Shown here: in pieces, positions 6,753 to 55,436 of the stretch
How positions within the stretch are numbered: the first letter of the stretch is position 1
How the letters are laid out: each line of letters begins with the position of its first letter
NCBI GenBank assembly: GCA_958510825.1
Contig: OY294050.1
Location: forward strand, 3,635,340-3,699,339
From: Brachypterus glaber
Taxonomy: Eukaryota > Arthropoda > Insecta > Coleoptera > Kateretidae
Length of the DNA: 64,000 nucleotides
Direction of reading: 5' to 3'
Position numbers and translations under genes: made by a program
Notes under the pieces: generated by a model
Told to the model about the DNA's origin: nothing
The model's database searches: none
The model's input: the letters and a program-made list of their open reading frames with translations, nothing else

Positions 6753-7454
6753 TTAAGACCTTATAAATATCTAATCGTTAGTGTGTAGGTTCCACAATTT
6801 TCAATTAATTCTTTCCACTAACGAGAAAAGGAAAATTTAATTTAAAAAATAAACATAACCTATAGTTTCCATTCATCAAGAGTGGAACTACAAGTGCCAG
6901 CTCTCATTCATTACCTTATCGAGCCCTGCATTATAAAACAATTACAGTCCGAGTTTAAATTGACAAAAGTCGTGGCTATCGGAAAAATGCGATCAAAAAC
7001 CTGTTTAACATTATGACTGTTTTAAACCAGCCATAAGAAAGGGTTAGAAATAATGACTTATAATGCAGAAACCGTTACTTCGACACTCCCAAGCAACAAG
7101 GATGTAACTCAAGTTAGACCCATTTTGAGTTATACTCATAGGTAAACGCCTTGAAAAAAGACACACATGGTGGTACTACTCAGGTTTCTCCACAGTCCAC
7201 TTTAAGCAAAAGTTTACTTAAAATCACTAAAGTAAGAAATTCTAAACTTGAATATTATCAGAAACAAACAGTAAATAAACAATAAATACTTAAACAGTTA
7301 AATAGAGAATTTTATAAGCTTTCAAATGATGTATCACATGACTTCCTTTTCCACTTCAATCATTTACCCACCCTTAAATAACAAAAAAAAATATCCAGTT
7401 TGAAAATTCATTCATGGTTCTGAACGTCTGAACTTCTTATAGTGAAGTGGTTTA
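6753..7454. other. AT-rich stretch, nothing recognised
   Basis: No gene or family member is seen. There is only a small imperfect inverted pair near 7096-7135 (AACTCAAG/TTGAGTT). Confidence 0.4.
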
Positions 7455-7829
7455 TTATAAAATAATTAAAAAAAGGCTTATAATCGACTTCACGTTAATT
7501 TTATTATTGAAAACAATTAGTGTGACCGCGGTTTCGCTATAATAGATATAGCATCTACGGACTTAAATACATATAATGGGACATCTTTAACATTCTGGTC
7601 ATAAATAACACTAAGGACATTACACAATTAATAAATTAGGTAACCTAATTTATTAATTGTGTAATGTCCTTAGTGTTATTTATGACCAGAATGTTAAAGA
7701 TGTCCCATTATATGTATTTAAGTCCGTAGATGCTATATCTATTATAGCGAAACCGCGGTCACACTAATTGTTTTCAATAATAAAATTAACGTGAAGTCGA
7801 TTATAAGCCTTTTTTTAATTATTTTATAA
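7455..7829. repeat. Perfect 375-bp palindrome
   Basis: The left arm (7455-7641) is followed after a single base by its exact reverse complement (7643-7829). The centre is ATTAGGT-A-ACCTAAT and the ends are TTATAAAATAATT/AATTATTTTATAA. I compared the arms base by base and found no mismatch. Both arms carry ACCGCGGTTTCGC, an unusually GC-rich word here. No copy is seen elsewhere in the window. It is either a very young foldback element, a locus kept uniform by conversion, or an assembly or read-foldback artefact. Confidence 0.9.
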
Positions 7830-7918
7830 AAAAAAATATTTTAGAAATAAAGCTGTCATGAAAAATGACAATATATGAGTTACGGCTTTGTTGCTTGGGG
7901 GTATCGACTTATGTATCA

Positions 7919-8094: not shown

Positions 8095-8470
8095 AACAAA
8101 AATAGTGACGTACAGAGAATTTGCGAGTGACCTCATTGACCTCAATGACCTCAGAATGACGGCCTTCTGCATATTTGCAGCTAGGTACTCTGCTCCTTTG
8201 GAGCACGCCGGAATGATCTTTAATGCAGAGAGAAACGTCTGCCACATGCCACCAAGAGAACCAATAATGAGAACCACAAATTTGATAGAATACTCTGGAT
8301 AGAGCCTTTTGAGTTCGTAAAGAAGATCATGATACTTGGTCGGTTTTTTTCTCCTCTTTACGCACTATGTTTGTTTCAGCAGGTGCTGAAAACTTAACTA
8401 CAAACATAGTTTTAAGTTGTTTATCGAGGAGGACAATGTCAGGCTTATTAGAATGGAGCTCTCTACAACT
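8095..8470 (-). pseudogene. LINE remnant: endonuclease/C-terminal region of a reverse transcriptase
   Basis: Minus-strand translation gives, in order, HSNKPDIVLLDK, VVKFSAPAETNIVRKEEKKT, then after a frameshift near 8341-8348 (a T homopolymer on the + strand) YHDLLYELKRLYPEYS, VVLIIGSLGGMWQTFLSAL and AANMQKAVILRSLRSMR. This order matches the C-terminal region of non-LTR polyproteins with a restriction-like endonuclease (PD-X12-14-D/E). The acidic residue expected after VV is a lysine here, and the frame is broken, so it is dead. The clade (R2/R4-type) is an inference from the motif only. Confidence 0.7.
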
Positions 8471-8865
8471 AGAATTATGAAACAAAAGACGTCTACCCTA
8501 TCTCTATCTCATTTGTGCTACACTTTCCAGCCAACCAAATAAATAATGTATTTGTTTTTCATACAACAAATACAGTATTTATTTGATTGGCCGGAAAGTG
8601 TAGCAGTGAGCGGCACGAACGACATAGCTAATGTGAATCTGTAGAATAAGATAATTCTACTAAAATTTAGATGGCGCCAGTAATTTCTTTAATAAAAATA
8701 ATATAGTTACACTTTTCGCCCGGCCAAGTAAATATTGTATTTGTTCAACAAAGAACAAACACAGAATTTGTTTGGTTGGGTGGAAGTGGGAGTGTATGTA
8801 TGTCTTCTATCCTTTTTGGGTAGAACTTTTTTCCCTGTCTAATCTAAAGGGAGAAATCGCCATTG
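8454..8865 (-). repeat. Copy of the 0.4-kb two-hairpin module
   Basis: On the minus strand this matches the tandem units at 33836-35198 and the single copy at 55018-55436. It contains two palindromes, one around AAATACAGTATTTATTTG and one around CAAATACAATATTTACTTGG. It abuts the LINE remnant at AGCTCCAT, the same point where the array units end, so the module may belong to that retroelement or have inserted next to it. Confidence 0.8.
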
Positions 8866-8883
8866 ATTTGCCTGGAGTAGTTG

Positions 8884-14295: not shown

Positions 14296-14666
14296 GTTTA
14301 TTGTACTATAAAATAAAACTAGTAGATATTGTCAAACACCGACAGATATATTTAAAAAAGTATTAAGCTAATGCCTGATGCATTTCGAAATTTGATATTT
14401 CATCTTCAGAGGCTAAAAAATTTAAATTAATGTAGTATACATACATAGAACAGGTGCGAATTTACTTGTTCTATGTATGTATACTACATTAATTTAAATT
14501 TTTTAGCCTCTGAAGATGAAATATCAAATTTCGAAATGCATCAGGCATTAGCTTAATACTTTTTTAAATATATCTGTCGGTGTTTGACAATATCTACTAG
14601 TTTTATTCTATAATATACATCGACTATATCAGGATGATATCACCTCACGAATGTTTATTGTACTAT
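14296..14666. mobile_element. Inverted-dimer retroelement-like insertion with 14-bp target duplication
   Basis: GTTTATTGTACTAT occurs exactly at 14296-14309 and 14653-14666. Inside, two arms of about 146 bp (14307-14452 and 14467-14612) are inverted copies with one mismatch and a 14-nt loop. A ~40-bp unpaired tail (14613-14652) follows the right arm only. Each arm carries CTGAAGA...GAAA, a hammerhead-like core (right-arm copy 14510-14549). A long variable-length target duplication, inverted partial copies, a one-sided extension and a hammerhead-like motif together recall Penelope-like elements. No reverse transcriptase is present, so it would be non-autonomous. Confidence 0.7.
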
Positions 14667-17201: not shown

Positions 17202-18338
17202 ATATAAATAATCTCAACTGAAGACAATACAAACACTTATCTCAATTTGTGGTTAAATTTAGTACTGATAAGAGATTAATGCTGGTAAGATATCTTAAAT
17301 TAATTAATACGGGCAAATCAGCTGAAACGGCCAGCAAAACAATTCTGGGTATATTAATCAAACGGTGATTATGATTATACAGTAATGATCGTAGTTTAAT
17401 GATCTTTGCTGTACAAGAAATAGTGTACTTAAAAATCAATCTGCCTGCAAAATATAATTTCCACAAAATAAGCCTAAACAAGGATATTATACAATTTTTT
17501 TTTCTAATCTTTCAATAACACTGCTCGACAAAAAAACATATCTCTCAATTTTGTCTGATATATCATTTTCGATTAACTTTTTGATGCTGAACACAAATTT
17601 GACCTCCATTTGTTAAATATATATAAATGCCACTGATTAAAAAAATAAAATAAATAAATATTATTTTTTGCCTAAATATTTATCTTAACAACCAGGCGTT
17701 CACTCCAGTCAGCGAACCAAGTAGTTAGTCGGTATTAAGCAATCAATCTTCCCACGTACGCGTATTTTATCGTTCTTTTTGCACGAAATTACAAATCAAA
17801 AGCTATGAACTGTCTATGAATAAATAACATTGCTCTACCCACAATTGCTATCGCGCGCACTAGGATAAAAGGTGTGTCTCCAGCATCCCAAAGAAGTATT
17901 TTTGTAGCTGTTGAACCGCGAACAATATAATAATAGATAATACAAAAGATCGTAAAAATAAATAGTATCTTTGGATGTGATTTATAGATTTCGTTATACG
18001 AGTGAATACCAAAGATATTTTTATTTATTTAAGGTCCCACATATCTTGTTTACATATTCCTATATACGAGGGTATTCAAAATTAAAACACATTTGTTTAT
18101 TAATTTTTGCCCTAATAATATAATATTATAATTGTATTGTAGCGTTAAAATACTAATTTTTACACAATTTAACACTATTTTTTATCAATTCAGGTCTACA
18201 CGGTCGACTGTATTAATTTTTTTCATTAGTGTAGAATATTTTTCCTCTGTGTGTAGGTGTTTTTTACAATTTTGGCGAAGGCGCACTACACGGAACATGA
18301 GTGTACTTCATTTTTAATTCGGTTGAATAAAGTTCATT
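17202..18338. other. Spacer, nothing recognised
   Basis: No gene or repeat is identified. AATATTTTTCCTCTGTGTG at 18228-18246 could be one end of an ACAC(A/G)GAAAAA-type element whose partner I cannot find. Confidence 0.4.
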
Positions 18339-18387
18339 TAATTTATTATTCCATCAATCTATTTTCCAATCATCGTACAGAGTGATA

Positions 18388-18432
18388 TTGATAGACTGAC
18401 AGTTTCGGGCTGCTGGCCCTCTTCAGTACCAA
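18388..18432 (-). ncRNA. Hammerhead ribozyme motif, unit 1 (consensus core)
   Basis: Reading the minus strand: stem I UUGGUA (18432-18427); core CUGAAGA (18426-18420, matching CUGANGA); stem II GGGC, loop CAGCA, GCCC (18419-18407); core GAAA (18406-18403); short stem III in CUGUCAG (18402-18396); cleavage triplet GUC ending at 18394; then UAUCAA (18393-18388), pairing with UUGGUA over six positions including one G-U. All conserved core positions of a type I hammerhead are present. The very short stem III suggests it would act best as a dimer or tandem transcript. Activity is not shown. Confidence 0.75.
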
Positions 18433-18732
18433 GAGTCAACTCTGCACGCTAATTAAGAAAACATTTTTAGACTTTATTCGCAAAAGGAATACAGTCATTA
18501 GATTGATGTAGACTTGTGGGCCACCTATGGCTAGATGTAGACAACTACTCATACCTCTCCTAGTCTGGAGACTTTAAATGGTAGGAAGTTGAAGACTTGT
18601 GTGTCTCGAGCACATAGTACCACTACTTAGAATTAGTAAGGACAGAAATTTTTAATTTTAAACAAAATTATAAAAATATTAATTTATTTATTATTCCATC
18701 AATCTATTTTCGAATCATCGTACAGAGTTATA

Positions 18733-18777
18733 TTGGTAGACTGACAGCTTCGGGCTGCTGGCCCTCTTCGGTACCAA
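18733..18777 (-). ncRNA. Hammerhead ribozyme motif, unit 2 (core changed)
   Basis: Same architecture as unit 1. Stem I is UUGGUA with UACCAA, so the G-U pair of unit 1 is a G-C pair here, a change that keeps the stem. Stem II is identical. The core, however, reads CCGAAGA instead of CUGAAGA and GAAG instead of GAAA. Both changes hit conserved positions, so this copy is probably slow or inactive. Confidence 0.65.
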
Positions 18778-19184
18778 GAGTCAAATCTGCACGCTGATTA
18801 AGAAAACGTTTTTAGACTTTATTCGCAAAAGGAATATAGTCATTAGTTTGATGTAGACTTGTGCGCCACCTATTTCTAGATGTAGACAACTACTCATACC
18901 TCTCCTAGTCTGGAGACTTTAAATGGTAGCAAGTTGAAGACTTGTGTGTTTTAAGCACATAGTACCACTAACGTGTGGTTAGACTTAGAATTCGTAAGGA
19001 CAGAAATTTTTAATTTTGAACAAAATTATAAAAATATTAATTTATTTATTAATTTATTTTAGATTAAATTAAATTAAAATTGTTATTTTTAAACTGTTTA
19101 ACTTCATGCTTATATTTAATTTATCATTTTCCCCAAGGAAAGTCTTGTGTTTATTGCTTTTTTTGATATGATATGATTTCCGTA

Positions 19185-19450
19185 AAAAAAAATTCTGTCT
19201 GTCGGTCTGTCTGTCGGTCTGTGTGTCCGGGAAACGATAACTCAATAACGCTTCGGGCTAAATACTTCAAATTTGGACAATAGGTTGATTATCTAAAGTT
19301 CTAGACTGGGATTGGTTTTGGTAAAAAACGTATTGGGGTAAGGGGACAAAATGGGGTAAAAACTATTTTTTTCAATTTATTTTTCGTTTTACGATAAAAT
19401 AAACTTTTTTTGAAAAACATTTTTTTTTTCTATTTTTTTTATTTTTTCGT
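19185..19450 (+). repeat. Dispersed repeat with GTCTGTCTGTCGG tract (family X/Y type)
   Basis: A GTCTGTCTGTCGGTCTG tract is followed by CGATAACTCAATAACGCTTC, CTAAATACTTCAAATTTGG and TTTTCGTTTTACG. The inverse copy at 39240-39680 has the same order. Confidence 0.65.
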
Positions 19451-20440
19451 TTTCATTTATTGAACCTAGGCCTATTTTCATTAAATGTACCTATGTGCCT
19501 ATAGGCAAAGTATTATTTTGTTGATAGCAGTTTTTTTTGTATAGTTCTTTTTCAACACCCTGTATAAAACCGAATTGCTATCATTCCCCCACATGTGTGT
19601 GAAACAAAGTGGCCCGCAAAATGCATCGAAGATGATGAATGTCTGTGAAAAAGGAGCGTAAAACGGGAAAATCAGAATAGGCAATTTCTGTGGTCTTAAG
19701 TAGCCATATTTTGCACGTAGTCCTGTATATGTATGAGTTATGTTTTGGGTTACCACGTCCCACGTATATTTTATTTGTTATCGCCATTCCGCTGCGTGAT
19801 GCTTTTCCCAAATAACTGTTTGTGCTTTTTATCGAATTAGACATATAGGTGCTTTATTTATTTAAATCAACGTATGCTAATTTTTCAATTTTCCATATTT
19901 TTACGAAAACAGAAAAAAACTAGATGAAACGTTGCAAGCACCCTGTCAAAAAATCGGCACTATTGTACACTAGAGCCATCTAGTTTGAAAATTTCAAACT
20001 AGGTGTTTTGTTTGATTTTAAATTCTGTATCTTTAAAACATTATATTCTAGCAAAAAACTGTATATAACATTTTTTATAGGGCTTAAAAAGAGCTTTTAT
20101 TTAAAATATAATTTTTTGAAATCGGGCTATAGATATGCTAAAAAAACCTTTTACTGCTTTAAACGCCAATATCTCGAAAACAATGCGTTTTACGAAAACG
20201 TTGTTTATTACATTTTTTGACCAATTTAAAATTATTTTTTATATAAGTGCTAAATTAACCAAATATAATAATAATTGCCCTAATTATAAACAAAAAACGC
20301 TAAAAATAGGAGTTTTACCCTATTTTTACACCCTTACCCCCAATCGTTTACCCCCAAAATCTAATCAGCTCTTCGGAATACGATAAGAAATAATATGCAA
20401 AAAACCGCAACTCGATATCTCATGTAGAAATGGAGTTAGA
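19451..20440. other. Spacer with overlapping short frames, no gene recognised
   Basis: An ACCCTGTATAAAAC word at 19556 is typical of arthropod repeat ends. Two overlapping minus frames at 19499-19844 resemble nothing I know. Confidence 0.4.
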
Positions 20441-27894: not shown

Positions 27895-28324
27895 AAAATT
27901 TTATCATTTTAAAAACCGCAATTTAAAACCTACTCCAGTTATCGCTTATAAATATTTAGTCCAGTCAAATAATAAATGTAAATTGCAATAAATGTCACAG
28001 GCTAATATTTTAAAGGGTGGTAGTGGATGGTAACAGAACAAAATTTTATCATTAAAACCGCAATTTAAAACCTACTCCAGTTATCGCTTATAAATATTTA
28101 GTCCAGTCAAATAATAAATGTAAATTGCAATAAATGTCACAGGCTAATATTTTAAAGGGTGGTAGTGGATGGTAACAGAACAAAATTTTATCATTAAAAC
28201 CGCAATTTAAAACCTACTCCAGTTATCGCTTATAAATATTTAGTCCAGTCAAATAATAAATGTAAATTGCAATAAATGTACACAGGCTAATATTTTAAAG
28301 GGTGGTAGTGGATGGTAACAGAAC
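27895..28324 (+). repeat. Three tandem ~143-bp units in one arm of an inverted repeat
   Basis: Units start at 27895, 28040 and 28182. Each runs from AAAATTTTATCATT through TTATCGCTTATAAATATTT to GTGGATGGTAACAGAAC. Units 2 and 3 differ by about one base. The third continues into the left arm of the palindromic element described for 28240-28860. Confidence 0.85.
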
Positions 28325-28860
28325 ACTCCTGTTAGTTCTTCACCGGGTGATTTGCTTAATCTTACAATAAAAATGCATATACCAATTTTTTTAAGGTCCA
28401 AATTTCCAAAAAAAAATTTCATTATATTCAAAAATAATGTTGGAGTTAAAATTGTATTTATCGATTTTTCATCTAAATTATTCATCGGAGGATAAAATTG
28501 TTTATTAGCAAAATTGTAGCTCTTGAAATTCTCTATAAGTTTTATATATTATAAATTTTCATAGGTATTTTGGTACTGTTACAGAGGGTGCAACTCGCCT
28601 TCTGTAACCGTACCAAAATACTTTTATTAAACAAAAATTGAATGAAATTTCCTCCTTAACAAAATTGGTTATGCATTTTTATCGTAAGATGGATATTCAC
28701 CAAGATAACCGCACTCGCTCTTAAAATTCAAGATAGCGGACACCCCTTAAGCAAATCATCCGGTGAAAAACTAACAGAAGCGTTCTGTAACCATCCACTA
28801 CCACACTTTAAAATATCAGCCAGTGTGCATTTTTTGCAATTTTAAGATAGGAATTCCTCC
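28240..28860. mobile_element. Foldback element with TTTTGGTACTGTTACAGA centre
   Basis: Inverted pairs, from the inside: ATTTTGGTACTGTTACAGA and CTGTAACCGTACCAAAAT around 28567-28622; CACCGGGTGATTTGCTTAA and its inverse at 28756; GTGGATGGTAACAGAAC and its inverse at 28785-28802; GCTAATATTTTAAAG and its inverse near 28810. The element with its triplicated left arm spans 27895-28860. Non-coding. Confidence 0.7.
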
Positions 28861-33540: not shown

Positions 33541-33785
33541 TTATTTTATTTTTTGCAAATTGTGTCTTTTTCTGATGTACGAATAATTTTAATAGAGCCC
33601 ATTACGAGTTTATTCTGACGGAAACTCGATGTAAAGCAATAAAACTTTTATTATATGTAATATATTTTTATAATTAATATATTCAAAAGTTCCGAGAAAA
33701 CTCGTACATTTAATTAAAACTAAATTTAAAAAATTTAAATCGTAAAAATGTGATGCGCTATTTAAAATTACCAATTTAACCTTAA

Positions 33786-35198
33786 TTAGTGTGAAATATG
33801 AAGTAAAGGGTTTTACACAGCTCGACATTATTAATGGAGATTTCTCCCGTTAGATTAGACAGGGACAAAAGTTCTACCCAAAAAGGATAAAAGACATACA
33901 TACACTCCCACTTCCACCCAACCAAACAAACTCTGTATTTGTTCTTTGTTGAACAAATACAATATTTACTTGGCCGGGCGAAAAGTGTAACTATATTATT
34001 TTTATTAAAGAAATTACTGGCGCCATCTAAATTTAAGTAGAATTATCTTATTCCACAGATTCACATTAGCTATGTTCGTTCGTGCCGCTCAGTGCTACAC
34101 TTTCCGGCCAACCAAATAAATACTGTATTTGTTGTATGAAAAACAAATACAGTATTTATTTGGTTGGCTGGAAAGTGTAGCACAAATGAGATAGAGATAG
34201 GGTAGACGTCTTTTGTTTCATAATTCTAGTTGTAGAGAGCTCCATTAGTGTGAATTATTAAGTAAAGGGTTTTACACAGCTCGACATTATTAATGGAGAT
34301 TTCTCCCGTTAGATTAGACAGGGACAAAAGTTCTACCCAAAAAGGATAAAAGACATACACTCCCACTTCCACCCAACCAAACAAACTCTGTATTTTTTCT
34401 TTGTTGAACAAATACAATATTTACTTGGCCGGGCGAAAAGTGTTTTATTAAAGAAATTACTGGCGCCATCTAAATTTTAGTAGAATTATCTTATTCTACA
34501 GATCCACATTAGCTATGTTCGTTCGTGCCGCTCAGTGCTACACTTTCCGGCCAACCAAATAAATACTGTATTTGTTGTATGAAAAACAAATACAGTATTT
34601 ATTTGGTTGGCTGGAAAGTGTACCACAAATGAGATAGAGATAGGGTAGACGTCTTTTGTTTCATAATTCTAGTTGTAGAGAGCTCCATTAGTGTGAAATA
34701 TTAAGTAAAGGGTTTTACACAGCTCGACATTATTAATGGAGATTTCTCCCGTTAGATTAGACAGGGACAAAAGTTCTACCCGAAAAGGATAGAAGACATA
34801 AATACACTCCCACTTCCACCCAACCAAACAAATTCTGTATTTGTTCTTTGTTGAACAAATACAATATTTACTTGGCCGGGCGAAAAGTGTAACTATATTA
34901 TTTTTATTAAAGAAATTACTGGCGCCATCTAAATTTTAGTAGAATTATCTTATTCTACAGATTCACATTAGCTATGTTCGTTCGTGCCGCTCAGTGCTAC
35001 ACTTTCCGGCCAACCAAATAAATACTGTATTTGTTGTATGAAAAACAAATACAGTATTTATTTGGTTGGCTGGAAAGTGTACCACAAATGAGATAGAGAT
35101 AGGGTAGACGTCTTTTGTTTCATAATTCTAGTTGTAGAGAGCTCCATTAGTGTGAAATATTAAGTAAAGGGTTTTACACAGCTCGACATTATTAATTG
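33786..35198 (+). repeat. Tandem array of ~0.45-kb two-hairpin modules (3 units plus partial ends)
   Basis: GGAGATTTCTCCCGTTAGAT recurs at 33836, 34295 and 34738. The spacings are 459 and 443 bp; the second unit lacks about 14 bp near 34440. Each unit ends at AGCTCCATTAGTGTGAA and the array breaks off at 35198. Each unit holds two palindromes: one from CACTCCCACTTCCACC to GGGCGAAAAGTGT, and one nearly perfect from CTACACTTTCCGGCCAACC to GGTTGGCTGGAAAGTGTA. A short minus frame recurs in each unit but is not conserved as a protein in the copy at 8.5 kb. Other copies are 8454-8865 (-) and 55018-55436 (+). Confidence 0.9.
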
Positions 35199-37199
35199 AG
35201 GTAATAAATATGAGTATAGTTAAGCGTCTAATTAACAAGTATGTATAATATTTAATATAGGTATCTTAAGGAATTTAATATATTAAATACCAAAATTTAG
35301 GATTAATTACAAAGATGATATTTATTGCAGAATGTAAGATTAACGGTTAAAGAAATGAAATAAAAATAACTGTATAGACGCGCCTTCGCCATATTTACAA
35401 AAAACAATAAGTGAAGGTTATAAGTATATTCGCACCGAGTACGTGAACCTAGTTTTTAGTGCACGAGAGTGTTTTTTTTACGAGTTGCAGCCGAGTAAAA
35501 AAAGCACCCGATGTGCACTGAAATGGTTTGCGTCCACTAACTAGGTCGTAAGATAAAGAAATTAATTTTATATACAGGGTGGCCTGTGCTAAACTTTGTG
35601 TATAATAAGACTTCCTGTTTTTTTTTATTACTGTATTACAAAGATTTAAAAATGGTATCATTTTTTTTGTCCGACTCTATTATCTGAATTTGTCTAGATA
35701 TAGCCTGAATGAATAAGTCTGGGCCACCCTGTAGATATATTTTTTCCCATTTAAGCCGAATTTTTGTCGTGTAACCGCAAGAAACTGGGTTAAAGGAGTA
35801 TGTTTTTTGTTTTTCTTTTAACCCATCAGTTAAACAGAGATTAAAATACATATTACCCTAACCCGGTTACTGGAGGTTTCAAAAAAGTACATTATGTGTA
35901 ACAGAAATTTAAATAAGATTGAAGTATAATATGAAAAACCTTTTTGTTCAAAATATAACCTATTTTTTAGTGCAAGAAAGTGCAGTCCCAATGAACATAC
36001 CTCGGTATATGGGTAAAACCATTAAATGACATAAATTAATTACGCTGATAAGCTCGTTTTATAAAATTTACTCCAGTCATTTAATTTGTCGCTCAGTTTT
36101 ATGTGATATATTGTCCCATATATGCAACATTCATGTCAGAAATAGGTTAGACATTTTTAAGGGGTTATTCACATCAGAATAATATCAAAAAAGCTTTCAG
36201 GGAGAATGACTACAGATAACTTGATTAAAGTATAACCATCATCAGGTTTTAAGTCCTAAGATTGGTTTAAGGTGGCTCTGCATCCTACCCTATCCCTCGC
36301 CAACTCTTTTGATTTTCTATTCAAAAAACACCGGGCGCGACCTCTAAATATTTTTTAAAAAATCTAAAAAAAAATCAGGGTTTTTCTTTCCCCTAAAGGA
36401 ACAATTTTGAGGGGTGGCACCCAAACAATTCCGTAAGTCCTGGGTACCCTAATACCTACCCTACCGTAGATTCCTACCCCTCATCCATGCATCAACAGGG
36501 ACGATGGATGCAGCCGGAATCTAGCTAGATGGAAGAGATATCACACAGTGTGTGACACACACCAAATGTAAGTGCTTTTTAGCTTTTCCTTCATTAGTAC
36601 ACCCGCAAATTATTCATCCGCTTTCCACCCTAAAGAGTTGCTGAAAATAAAAATATAATTCTGGTAGCGTCTTTTGGAAAGATATAACTTTTTTTAAAAG
36701 TATATTCGCACCTATGTTCCTTGGAAGGTTTTTCATATTTTTTTATGTAGAATCACCCCTTAAAGTTTGTATAGTTACGTCTTTTCTAGATCGATTTACG
36801 GTACCTACCTACCTACTTTGAAATTTACTCATATCATGCAAATCTTCTGATTGATTAAACGGTAATACGTACAGTTCCTGTTCCACATATTGATTCTGTC
36901 GTTTTATCATGATCATGGTCATATTTTTATATTAGTCAAAATAATATCACAAAGTTCTTGGATTAAACAGAAATAAAATAAATACCTAACAGAAAAAAAA
37001 TTATATTGTTTTATTGAAAGAAAAAGCAAAAGTACACACAGAGAAAACTGATTTGATCTTGGAGGTAAACGATTAGGGGTCAGGGGGTAATAATTAGGTA
37101 AAAATTCTATTTTCAGCGTTTTTTGGTTATAATTAGGTTATTTGATACAGAATTTTAAAAATTTATTGCTTAAGTTAATAGTATATTAAAATACTAGTT
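35199..37199. other. Spacer with small repeats
   Basis: 35448-35546 is an imperfect hairpin with TTTTTAGTGCAC/GTGCACTGAAA arms and CCTAG/CTAGG ends. TATACAGGGTGG at 35572 is a typical arthropod repeat word. 36720-36790 copies the 2805-2880 repeat. No gene is recognised. Confidence 0.45.
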
Positions 37200-49640: not shown

Positions 49641-50165
49641 ATAATACCACAACGCACTAATCACCCTTAACAAAGCGCTCTCAGCAAAACTTCAGGCCTT
49701 CCAAAACAAGGCACTCAGAATATGCCTCGATGCCCCCTGGTTCATGAGGAACAACCAGATACACAGAGATCTCGAAATGCCCCTCCTAAAAACGGAAATC
49801 ATCCGCTACAGCACGTCTTTTATACAAGACAATTTAGATCACCCAAACCCCCTCATTTCAAACTTTCTAGATTACGATCATGAAATACACAACACTCACA
49901 AAAAGATCAAAAACGTCCTCAACCAGTAATGGTACCCACTAATACAGGACAGATGCATTCCCAGCATCAGTGAGATAGTCTCACTCCTCCCGCACATCCC
50001 TCCTCTCCCTATCACATCCCTCCCCATCCCCCTCCCACCCACTCCACAGCGCCAAATTATGACAGATGCAACTCGCATCAGTGAGCAGAGACTCACTCCC
50101 CCCCAAATTATGACAGATGCAACTCGCATCAGTGAGCATAGACTCACTGCCCCAAATTTCAATTC
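49641..50165 (+). pseudogene. Jockey-like LINE 3' end with repeated 3' UTR
   Basis: From about 49670 the frame reads NKALSAKLQAFQNKALRICL, DAPWFMRNNQIHRDLEMPLL, KTEIIRYSTSFIQ..., stopping at 49927-49929. The pattern QxxQNKxLRxxxxAPWxxRNxxxHxDLxxPxxxxEI is the C-terminal tail of Jockey-clade reverse transcriptases. The copy is strongly 5'-truncated. The 3' UTR holds two near-identical ~50-bp units at 50049-50150 (AAATTATGACAGATGCAACT; CGCATCAGTGAGCA) and a diverged third at 49948-49990. Base composition is much more GC-rich than the surroundings, suggesting a fairly recent arrival. Confidence 0.85.
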
Positions 50166-51777: not shown

Positions 51778-52144
51778 CAAATCCGCTCAACGCTAGCCAC
51801 ACGTCAGTCCTTCGTAGCAAACAAACGTTGCGATATTTCTTCTCGCATGCTTGGCAACGTCGAAAATTGGCCTAGTGAACGAAATCTTTCTACGGCAAAG
51901 CGAATCCAAGCAACAGCCCGTCAGTGTGAAGGTTAGATACACAAGATGGTGACTAACCTTCTTAAATTGACGAAAATAACCCAATAACCTAACCTAAAAC
52001 ACTAAAAAAAACTCAAAAATCGAACAACCACGGTTTAAAACTATGTTTCTTTTTTGACATTTCGCGGGTACTATGATGTGCGGGTGCAACAGAGGCTTTT
52101 TTGTTTTTCGTTTGACAATGTGAGTGCGGAATTTTAACTCAAAA
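51778..52144 (+). promoter_or_regulatory. Probable 5' UTR/promoter of the phospholipase C-beta-like gene
   Basis: Higher GC and CpG than its surroundings, free of the repeat families seen elsewhere. It contains arthropod initiator-like TCAGT at 51804-51808 and 51921-51925, an AAGATGGTGA word (YY1/Pho-like) at 51943-51952, and an AAGGTTAG...CTAACCTT inverted pair (51929-51960). The start context is CTCAAAAATGG. Which initiator is used, and whether a 5' intron exists, cannot be told from sequence alone. Confidence 0.45.
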
Positions 52145-52255
52145 ATGGCTGGGAGATTTAGTGGACCTGAAAAGGTTGTCAATGCTGTATCTTTTAAGCC
52201 CATAGAGGTACCAGAAGCACTGATCAATGGGGAAAAATTTATTAAATGGGATGAG
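52145..52255 (+). CDS. First coding exon, phospholipase C-beta-like (Plc21C-type)
   Basis: From ATG at 52145 the 37 codons read MAGRFSGPEKVVNAVSFKPI then EVPEALINGEKFIKWDE, ending at GAG followed by GTAGGA, a good splice donor; the intron is in phase 0. As known for the family, PLC-beta proteins begin with a short lead into the N-terminal PH domain containing a (N/K)GxKFxKWD(E/D) motif. The VVN...PVPE-type lead and NGEKFIKWDE fit the insect Plc21C type from memory. The enzyme would hydrolyse phosphatidylinositol 4,5-bisphosphate downstream of Gq-coupled receptors at the plasma membrane. The next exon (the rest of the PH domain) is not in the window, so the first intron is at least 11.7 kb. 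An in-frame extension upstream has no ATG, which supports this start. Confidence 0.75.
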
Positions 52256-52904
52256 GTAGGACTTTTCATTCAATACTTTTTAATTTGTATAGATTTTTTG
52301 GGTTTTCTTTGCTTTCTCAGTTTCTGTTTTTCCACGCTCATTTCTGAAATAATATATATTTAGACAATTGTAGATGAAAATAGATACATGTTTCTAATAG
52401 ATTTAGTTGACAAATTATTCAAAATATATACACACTTCCTAAATATAAGAGAAGACAGTAAGTTTAAGGAGAGTTAAAATGACCATCCCACTATATCTTT
52501 TAACGCTAAGAGCTTTTTTCGTAAAAAAATGTCTTAAATGTATCTATGCCAAAGTGCCAAAGCTTAATCTTTGGTAGAAACCGTCAGGCACAAAGCTTTT
52601 TTTCTTAAAGGTATTTTTTGGGCGCCAAGTTTTGGTTGAAACCGTCAGGGATAAAGCTTTTTTTATTAGGGTGCCACCCTGGGGGCTGAGCCCCCCTAGA
52701 TATTTTTCTGGTTGCGGCCCTGAATTTCCATTCAATACTTAATTTTTATAGATTTTTTGGTTTCATTTTAAATACTTCCCAAATATATGAGAAGACACTA
52801 CCTATAACTTCTCAATATCAAATTAAACGAAAGATCTTAGGACAGAACAATAATAAAAATAATAATAATTCATCATTATTTCGTCCCCAAAATATTTTTA
52901 TAGA
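52256..52904 (+). other. Start of the putative large first intron
   Basis: GT donor at 52256. 52560-52725 has a two-copy repeat (GAAACCGTCAGG at 52578 and 52639, each followed by AAAGCTTTTTT) and a CTGGGGGCTGAGCCCCCC hairpin. No second exon is recognised. Confidence 0.5.
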
Positions 52905-54935: not shown

Positions 54936-55017
54936 TGAAATTACTTATGTCTTATGTCAAACTTTTACTTTGTTTTATTTTGGTGCTAAATTATAACATT
55001 TTAATAAAACGCCACAA

Positions 55018-55436
55018 TGGCGATTTCTCACTTTATATTAGACAGGGACAAAAGTTCTACCCAAAAAGGATAGAAGACATACATACACTCCCACTTCCAC
55101 CAAACCAAACAAATTCTGTATTTGTTCTTTGTTGAACAAGTACAATATTTACTTGGCCGGGCGAAAAGTGTAACTATATTATTTTTATTAAAGAAATTAC
55201 TGGCGCCATCTAAATTTTAGTAGAATTATCTTATTCTACAGATTCACATTAGCTATGTTCGTTCGTGCCGCTCAGTGCTACACTTTCCGGCCAACCAAAT
55301 AAATACTGTATTTGTTGTATGAAAAACAAATACAGTATTAATTTGGTTGGCTGGAAAGTGTAGCACAAATGAGATAGAGATAGGGTAGACGTCTTTTGTT
55401 TCATATTTCTAGTTGTAGAGAGCTCTATTCGGTATA
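55018..55436 (+). repeat. Single copy of the two-hairpin module
   Basis: Matches the units of the 33786-35198 array from TTAGACAGGGACAAAAG to GTAGAGAGCTCTATT, with both hairpins. The flanks differ from the array, so the module is mobile or was dispersed as a unit. Confidence 0.85.

Follow-up and report, generated by a model that had tools for sequence, protein, structure and literature searches.

We consider it likely that the locus described here goes back to the genomic insertion of a metazoan non-LTR retrozyme and has since aged; it is preserved as two head-to-tail units on the minus strand, of which the first holds a complete type I hammerhead motif and the second a hammerhead with its stems kept and its core altered. 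By retrozyme we mean here a non-coding, non-autonomous retroelement, whose transcription, cleavage, circularisation, mobilisation and age at this locus we infer. Unit size, tandem form, GC content, the lack of open frames and the hammerhead of unit 1 are, as sequence features, a fit to retrozymes. The locus is ordinary in kind, and what is special about it is the natural pairing of an intact with a broken core, the latter next to an intact substrate strand.

Structure and divergence of the tandem array

The original prediction of a tandem 345-bp repeat is confirmed, with two direct copies detected. Repeat finding returned a 300-nt direct repeat pair at a spacing of 345 (18307-18606 and 18652-18951) and, in the same array, a 69-nt pair at a spacing of 358, while in a self-BLAST of the window (the whole 64-kb stretch of DNA that was analysed) 18333-18693 matches 18679-19051. 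The two units, read in the minus-strand sense, are thereby about 345 and 358 bp long (Table 1). The shift in spacing from 345 to 358 reflects 13 nt of unit 2 that are absent from unit 1 in the alignment, an extra length that had been overlooked. By eye, the stretch (about 18968-18983) makes a small hairpin, CTAAC-CACAC-GTTAG on the minus strand, which suggests a deletion in unit 1 as the origin of the difference. Beyond 14 gap columns, the units differ by 20 substitutions, of which 10 are transitions and 10 transversions.

One unit follows immediately on the other without any intervening coding part, and no stop-to-stop frame of at least 70 aa lies inside the array. No third copy of the 345-bp unit was found in the 64-kb window, where the other self-BLAST rows are at most 44 nt long (best E 1.3e-4), nor were further long direct repeats found within 17901-19560 beyond the two units. 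The GC content of unit 1 is 0.351 vs 0.285 in its flanks (500 + 500 bp). This value lies under the ceiling of 45-50% used as a GC criterion for retrozymes, though the comparison says little in a window whose overall GC content is only 30.8%.

A 10-bp direct repeat, TTAATTTATT, stands near the two ends of the array as a possible but ambiguous target-site duplication. A repeat of this length or longer is shared by 3% of AT-matched random pairs, and the same 10-mer is present also at 18679 and 19037. Target-site duplications of metazoan retrozymes, when present, are described as longer than 4 bp (PMC7229834).

Table 1. Positions of the array, its hammerhead motifs and the associated predicted or possible features.
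Feature	Position	Strand	Basis
Dimeric retrozyme-like two-unit array	18333..19051	-	Repeat finding, self-BLAST, alignment, GC contrast
Array limits if the possible target-site duplication is real	18348-19048		
Type I hammerhead of unit 1, extended stem I (6 + 10 bp), intact core	18374..18448	-	Descriptor scan, drawn structure, shuffles
CUGAAGA core box (C3-A9), unit 1	18420..18426	-	Sequence and descriptor scan
Stem III of unit 1, ACU-GUC-AGU, A15.1 first	18395..18403	-	Drawn dimer structure
Predicted cleavage site, unit 1 (C17 at 18394, U1.1 at 18393)	18393..18394	-	Descriptor scan
Unit 2 hammerhead, stems kept, core altered	18719..18793	-	Alignment, descriptor scan, drawn structure
Predicted cleavage site, unit 2 (C17 at 18739, substrate strand intact)	18738..18739	-	Descriptor scan
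345-nt RNA expected from cutting both sites	18394..18738	-	Coordinates from descriptor scan
TTAATTTATT, possible left target-site duplication	18338..18347	+	10-bp direct repeat
TTAATTTATT, possible right target-site duplication	19049..19058	+	10-bp direct repeat

Hammerhead motifs in the two units

Read 5' to 3' on the minus strand, the hammerhead of unit 1 begins with the first strand of outer stem I (18448-18439), the 6-nt side of an internal loop and inner stem I (18432-18427), continues with CUGAAGA (18426-18420), GGGC-CAGCA-GCCC (18419-18407) and GAA (18406-18404), and closes with ACU-GUC-AGU (18403-18395), C17 (18394), the returning strand of inner stem I (18393-18388), the 4-nt side of the internal loop and outer stem I (18383-18374). 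Three stems can be drawn, with the structure open at stem I: a stem I of 6 + 10 bp, its inner helix including one G-U pair and its outer helix lying beyond the 6/4-nt internal loop; a stem II of 4 bp (GGGC/GCCC) capped by the 5-nt loop CAGCA; and a stem III of 3 bp with a 3-nt loop. The internal loop and the loop of stem II would be the partners in any loop 1 - loop 2 tertiary contact. The conserved core CUGANGA...GAAA...UH is complete. Every element originally reported on this strand (CUGAAGA, GGGC/GCCC, GAAA, stem III, C17 and a 6-bp stem I) is present and in order, the 10-bp outer stem I across the internal loop being the one part that had been missed. As judged from sequence, the original prediction also appears well founded in its choice of the minus strand, in placing cleavage at 18394/18393 and in its link to retrozymes. 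The 9-mer that forms stem III is near-palindromic and could form 8 bp with a second copy of itself, leaving a central U-U mismatch. A descriptor scan with a strict core found no hammerhead of type II or type III in the window.

In unit 2, both stems are kept and a G-U pair of stem I has become G-C, as the original prediction held, but two changes in the core had gone unnoticed: U4 to C (18770, corresponding to 18425 in unit 1) and A15.1 to G (18748, corresponding to 18403), the second of which leaves a G-U pair. Three further changes within the motif lie outside the core, namely a G to U substitution that costs outer stem I one pair (9 of the 10 are kept), the G-U to G-C change, which falls on the substrate strand, and a change in the internal loop. 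U4 and A15.1 are needed for hammerhead activity, and from its sequence the hammerhead of unit 2 is predicted to be probably inactive in cis.

Differences between the units fall on 5 of the 75 hammerhead positions (18375-18449) and on 15 of the 286 that make up the rest of unit 1, and we see no sign in these sequences of selection on the ribozyme. Because the ribozyme has not been spared among the 20 inter-unit substitutions, the array looks like an aged insertion. If the units were identical when inserted, their decay has proceeded without protection of the ribozyme, and the intact core of unit 1 therefore requires no selection to explain it.

Descriptor and database searches

The strict descriptor combined the core with a stem I of at least 6 bp, a stem II of at least 4 bp and a stem III of at least 3 bp, without requiring the outer 10-bp stem, and it found no match on either strand in any of 1000 dinucleotide-shuffled versions of the window. 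A loose descriptor, with minima of 4, 3 and 2 bp for stems I, II and III, gave two matches over as many shuffles. When the loose stem minima were combined with slightly wider loop limits, the real window gave exactly one match, which is unit 1; relaxing the descriptor further (one of five core positions free, position 15.1 not necessarily A) added unit 2 and nothing else.

A search with the Rfam hammerhead models had been proposed along with the original prediction, and its outcome was negative: no family reached its gathering score in the whole window, in a run made without a known animal hammerhead as positive control, and no hammerhead family appeared up to E 10 when the query was an 800-bp region, for which all rows scored far under their gathering cut-offs. 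With the 96-bp motif region as query, the first of four rows was RAGATH-1-hammerhead (RF03152), at 14.3 bits against a cut-off of 56.3 (E 2.5), with the core in register in the alignment; the next row was the unrelated SNORD78 (E 2.9). By score alone the RAGATH-1-hammerhead row is at chance level, and although this family is the first that Rfam places on the motif, the motif is not a member of it by Rfam's rule. Given a type I hammerhead that Rfam models miss at threshold, elements of this sort may be under-counted wherever annotation relies on them.

Viral contigs contained no match to a 39-letter motif, to a looser hammerhead pattern or to a 42-letter stretch common to the units, and prokaryotic genome contigs contained none to the looser hammerhead pattern. 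The SINE-like hammerhead elements of schistosomes are the source of the idea of a Pol III promoter, which was unsupported at this locus: each unit has one A-box-like match on the minus strand, and there is no B box.

Folding and energetics

As a single strand, the monomer has a lowest-energy fold of -32.5 kcal/mol, in which CUGA pairs with UCAG, vs -21.3 kcal/mol for the hammerhead, a difference that calls for genuine caution. An active-type dimer reaches -55.1 kcal/mol, a gain of about 12 over two monomers in the active form (2 x -21.3, about -42.6 kcal/mol), but it is less stable than the best cofold (-62.9 kcal/mol) and than two lowest-energy monomers (-58.8 kcal/mol); these energies omit tertiary contacts. 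Because stem III is only 3 bp long but nearly self-complementary, efficient cutting would probably proceed via a dimeric hammerhead, and by analogy with the newt and axolotl hammerheads such dimeric action seems likelier than monomeric action.

Once circularised, the 345-nt minus-strand RNA is predicted to fold at -82.2 kcal/mol, below all 200 of 200 dinucleotide shuffles (z -3.9). The plus strand of the 345-nt unit is also structured (z -2.7), and among 100 random windows of 345 nt there are 10 whose folds equal or exceed the circular monomer in stability.

Other features of the window

Several further repeats are present in the window. A 459-bp tandem family occupies 33785-35200 in about 3 copies, with single copies of about 415 bp, about 97% identical, at 8452-8867 (in the opposite orientation) and 55015-55430; it contains, by eye, a long inverted repeat around AAATAAATACTGTATTTGTT, and neither Rfam nor the hammerhead scans found a ribozyme in it. 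Shorter tandem repeats lie at 27895-28325 (142 bp x 3, 98% matches) and 317-583 (131 bp x 2, 99% matches). Self-BLAST also aligned two stretches with their own reverse complements, 7451-7833 (99%) and 14304-14615 (96%), which are perhaps foldback or MITE-type elements.

The open frame at 52124-52363 on the plus strand resembles the N-terminus of phospholipase C-beta in two PDB sequences (E 0.00066 and 0.00097) and matches Pfam PH_14 at E 0.00027, below the curated cut-off; it may be an exon coding for the N-terminal end of such a protein, and the resemblance suggests that the host is an animal. Another frame, 49645-49929, resembles by eye the C-terminus of a jockey-like non-LTR retrotransposon; Pfam assigned it to no family, and a homologue search at E 0.001 was empty.

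Origin and present state of the array

If the array arose as a retrozyme, released monomers would have been circularised by a host ligase, the circle would have been copied round by the reverse transcriptase of another element, and the resulting tandem cDNA would then have been inserted into the genome. At the locus today, self-cutting at 18394/18393 would still be expected, with a cut at 18739/18738 only if the core of unit 1 acts on the intact substrate strand of unit 2. The release of units of about 345 nt, as originally proposed, is weakened, since it needs the cut at 18739/18738 as well and the core of unit 2 is broken at two conserved positions. We allow a modest outside chance that the core of unit 1 does cut both sites via a dimeric hammerhead, the core of unit 2 having been lost and its substrate kept. 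If this is true, one intact copy would be enough to produce 345-nt circles, and half-dead retrozyme arrays could survive. The intact and broken pair is, in any event, a natural test of whether one good core can process a whole array via dimeric hammerheads.

The two units could instead be pseudo-LTRs, with their hammerhead, left by a Penelope-like element, but we regard this as unlikely. Penelope-like elements have a reverse transcriptase, often with a GIY-YIG endonuclease. Pfam detected neither a reverse transcriptase nor an endonuclease in the 20 open frames scanned out of 85 listed, 8 of the 20 lying no more than about 2.1 kb from the array, and the direct junction between the units leaves no room for a coding part. 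Such elements, which are found in tandem, do contain hammerheads of type I (PMC7229834, PMC7761336), and the short stem III at the locus agrees with this origin; their hammerheads, however, are characterised in PMC7761336 as minimal, without helix III or loop-loop interactions, whereas here there is a stem III of 3 bp and a long, internally looped stem I.

We place at a similarly low level the probability that the array is a short piece of a hammerhead satellite DNA family spread by DNA-level recombination, after the manner of pDo500, an insect satellite of about 500 bp whose hammerhead is reported to cut in vitro (PMC2837043). The tandem dimer would be accounted for as the smallest possible satellite array; against this reading, the units number just two and the 64-kb window holds no third copy. 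Moreover, the satellite and retrozyme readings overlap, as Cervera and de la Pena class such animal repeats as retrozymes (PMC7229834). That the hammerhead-like pattern arose by chance within an unrelated tandem duplication, a view for which one could cite the missing Rfam match at threshold, the damaged core of unit 2 and the fact that the hammerhead is not the lowest-energy fold, is very improbable in view of the strict descriptor's 0 matches in 1000 shuffles, even without demanding the 10-bp outer stem.

Comparison with known hammerhead systems

An aged retrozyme dimer, the origin that we favour, has points of likeness with several described systems. Hammerheads of Penelope-like elements and Terminons are likewise of type I, occur in tandem in Penelope-like elements and have a reduced stem III, but are described as minimal variants inside autonomous elements, none of which was seen in the frames scanned here (PMC7761336). 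The dimeric hammerheads of amphibian satellites and retrozymes resemble it in having a weak helix III and the possibility of a dimer with a longer one (PMC7229834, PMC6155905, PMC7761336); in this likeness, drawn from published descriptions, the 3-bp helix III with its 3-nt loop sets our locus apart and makes a monomer fold conceivable.

The pDo500 satellite of Dolichopoda cave crickets offers an insect parallel, again one of description, in which a hammerhead resides in a tandem repeat and is often not the lowest-energy fold (113 of 146 sequences predicted to be active; PMC2837043). It differs in having a unit of about 500 bp, in being an abundant satellite and in the conservation of its hammerhead, which exceeds that of the rest of the unit by several of the measures given in PMC2837043.

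The closest correspondence is with the non-LTR retrozymes of metazoans reported by Cervera and de la Pena (2020), which are described as tandem repeats of 150-450 bp, ranging from dimers to large multimers, with low GC content, type I hammerheads and no LTR, PBS or PPT, and which yield linear and circular RNAs of about 170-400 nt; insects and crustaceans are among the hosts of analogous repeats (PMC7229834). Our locus, known from DNA alone, departs from that description in pairing one intact with one broken core and in its 3-bp stem III, but it shares the range of unit size, the tandem arrangement from dimers upward, the low GC content, the type I hammerhead and a stable predicted circular fold. 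If correctly assigned, it is one more animal retrozyme locus, and one that can be read clearly.
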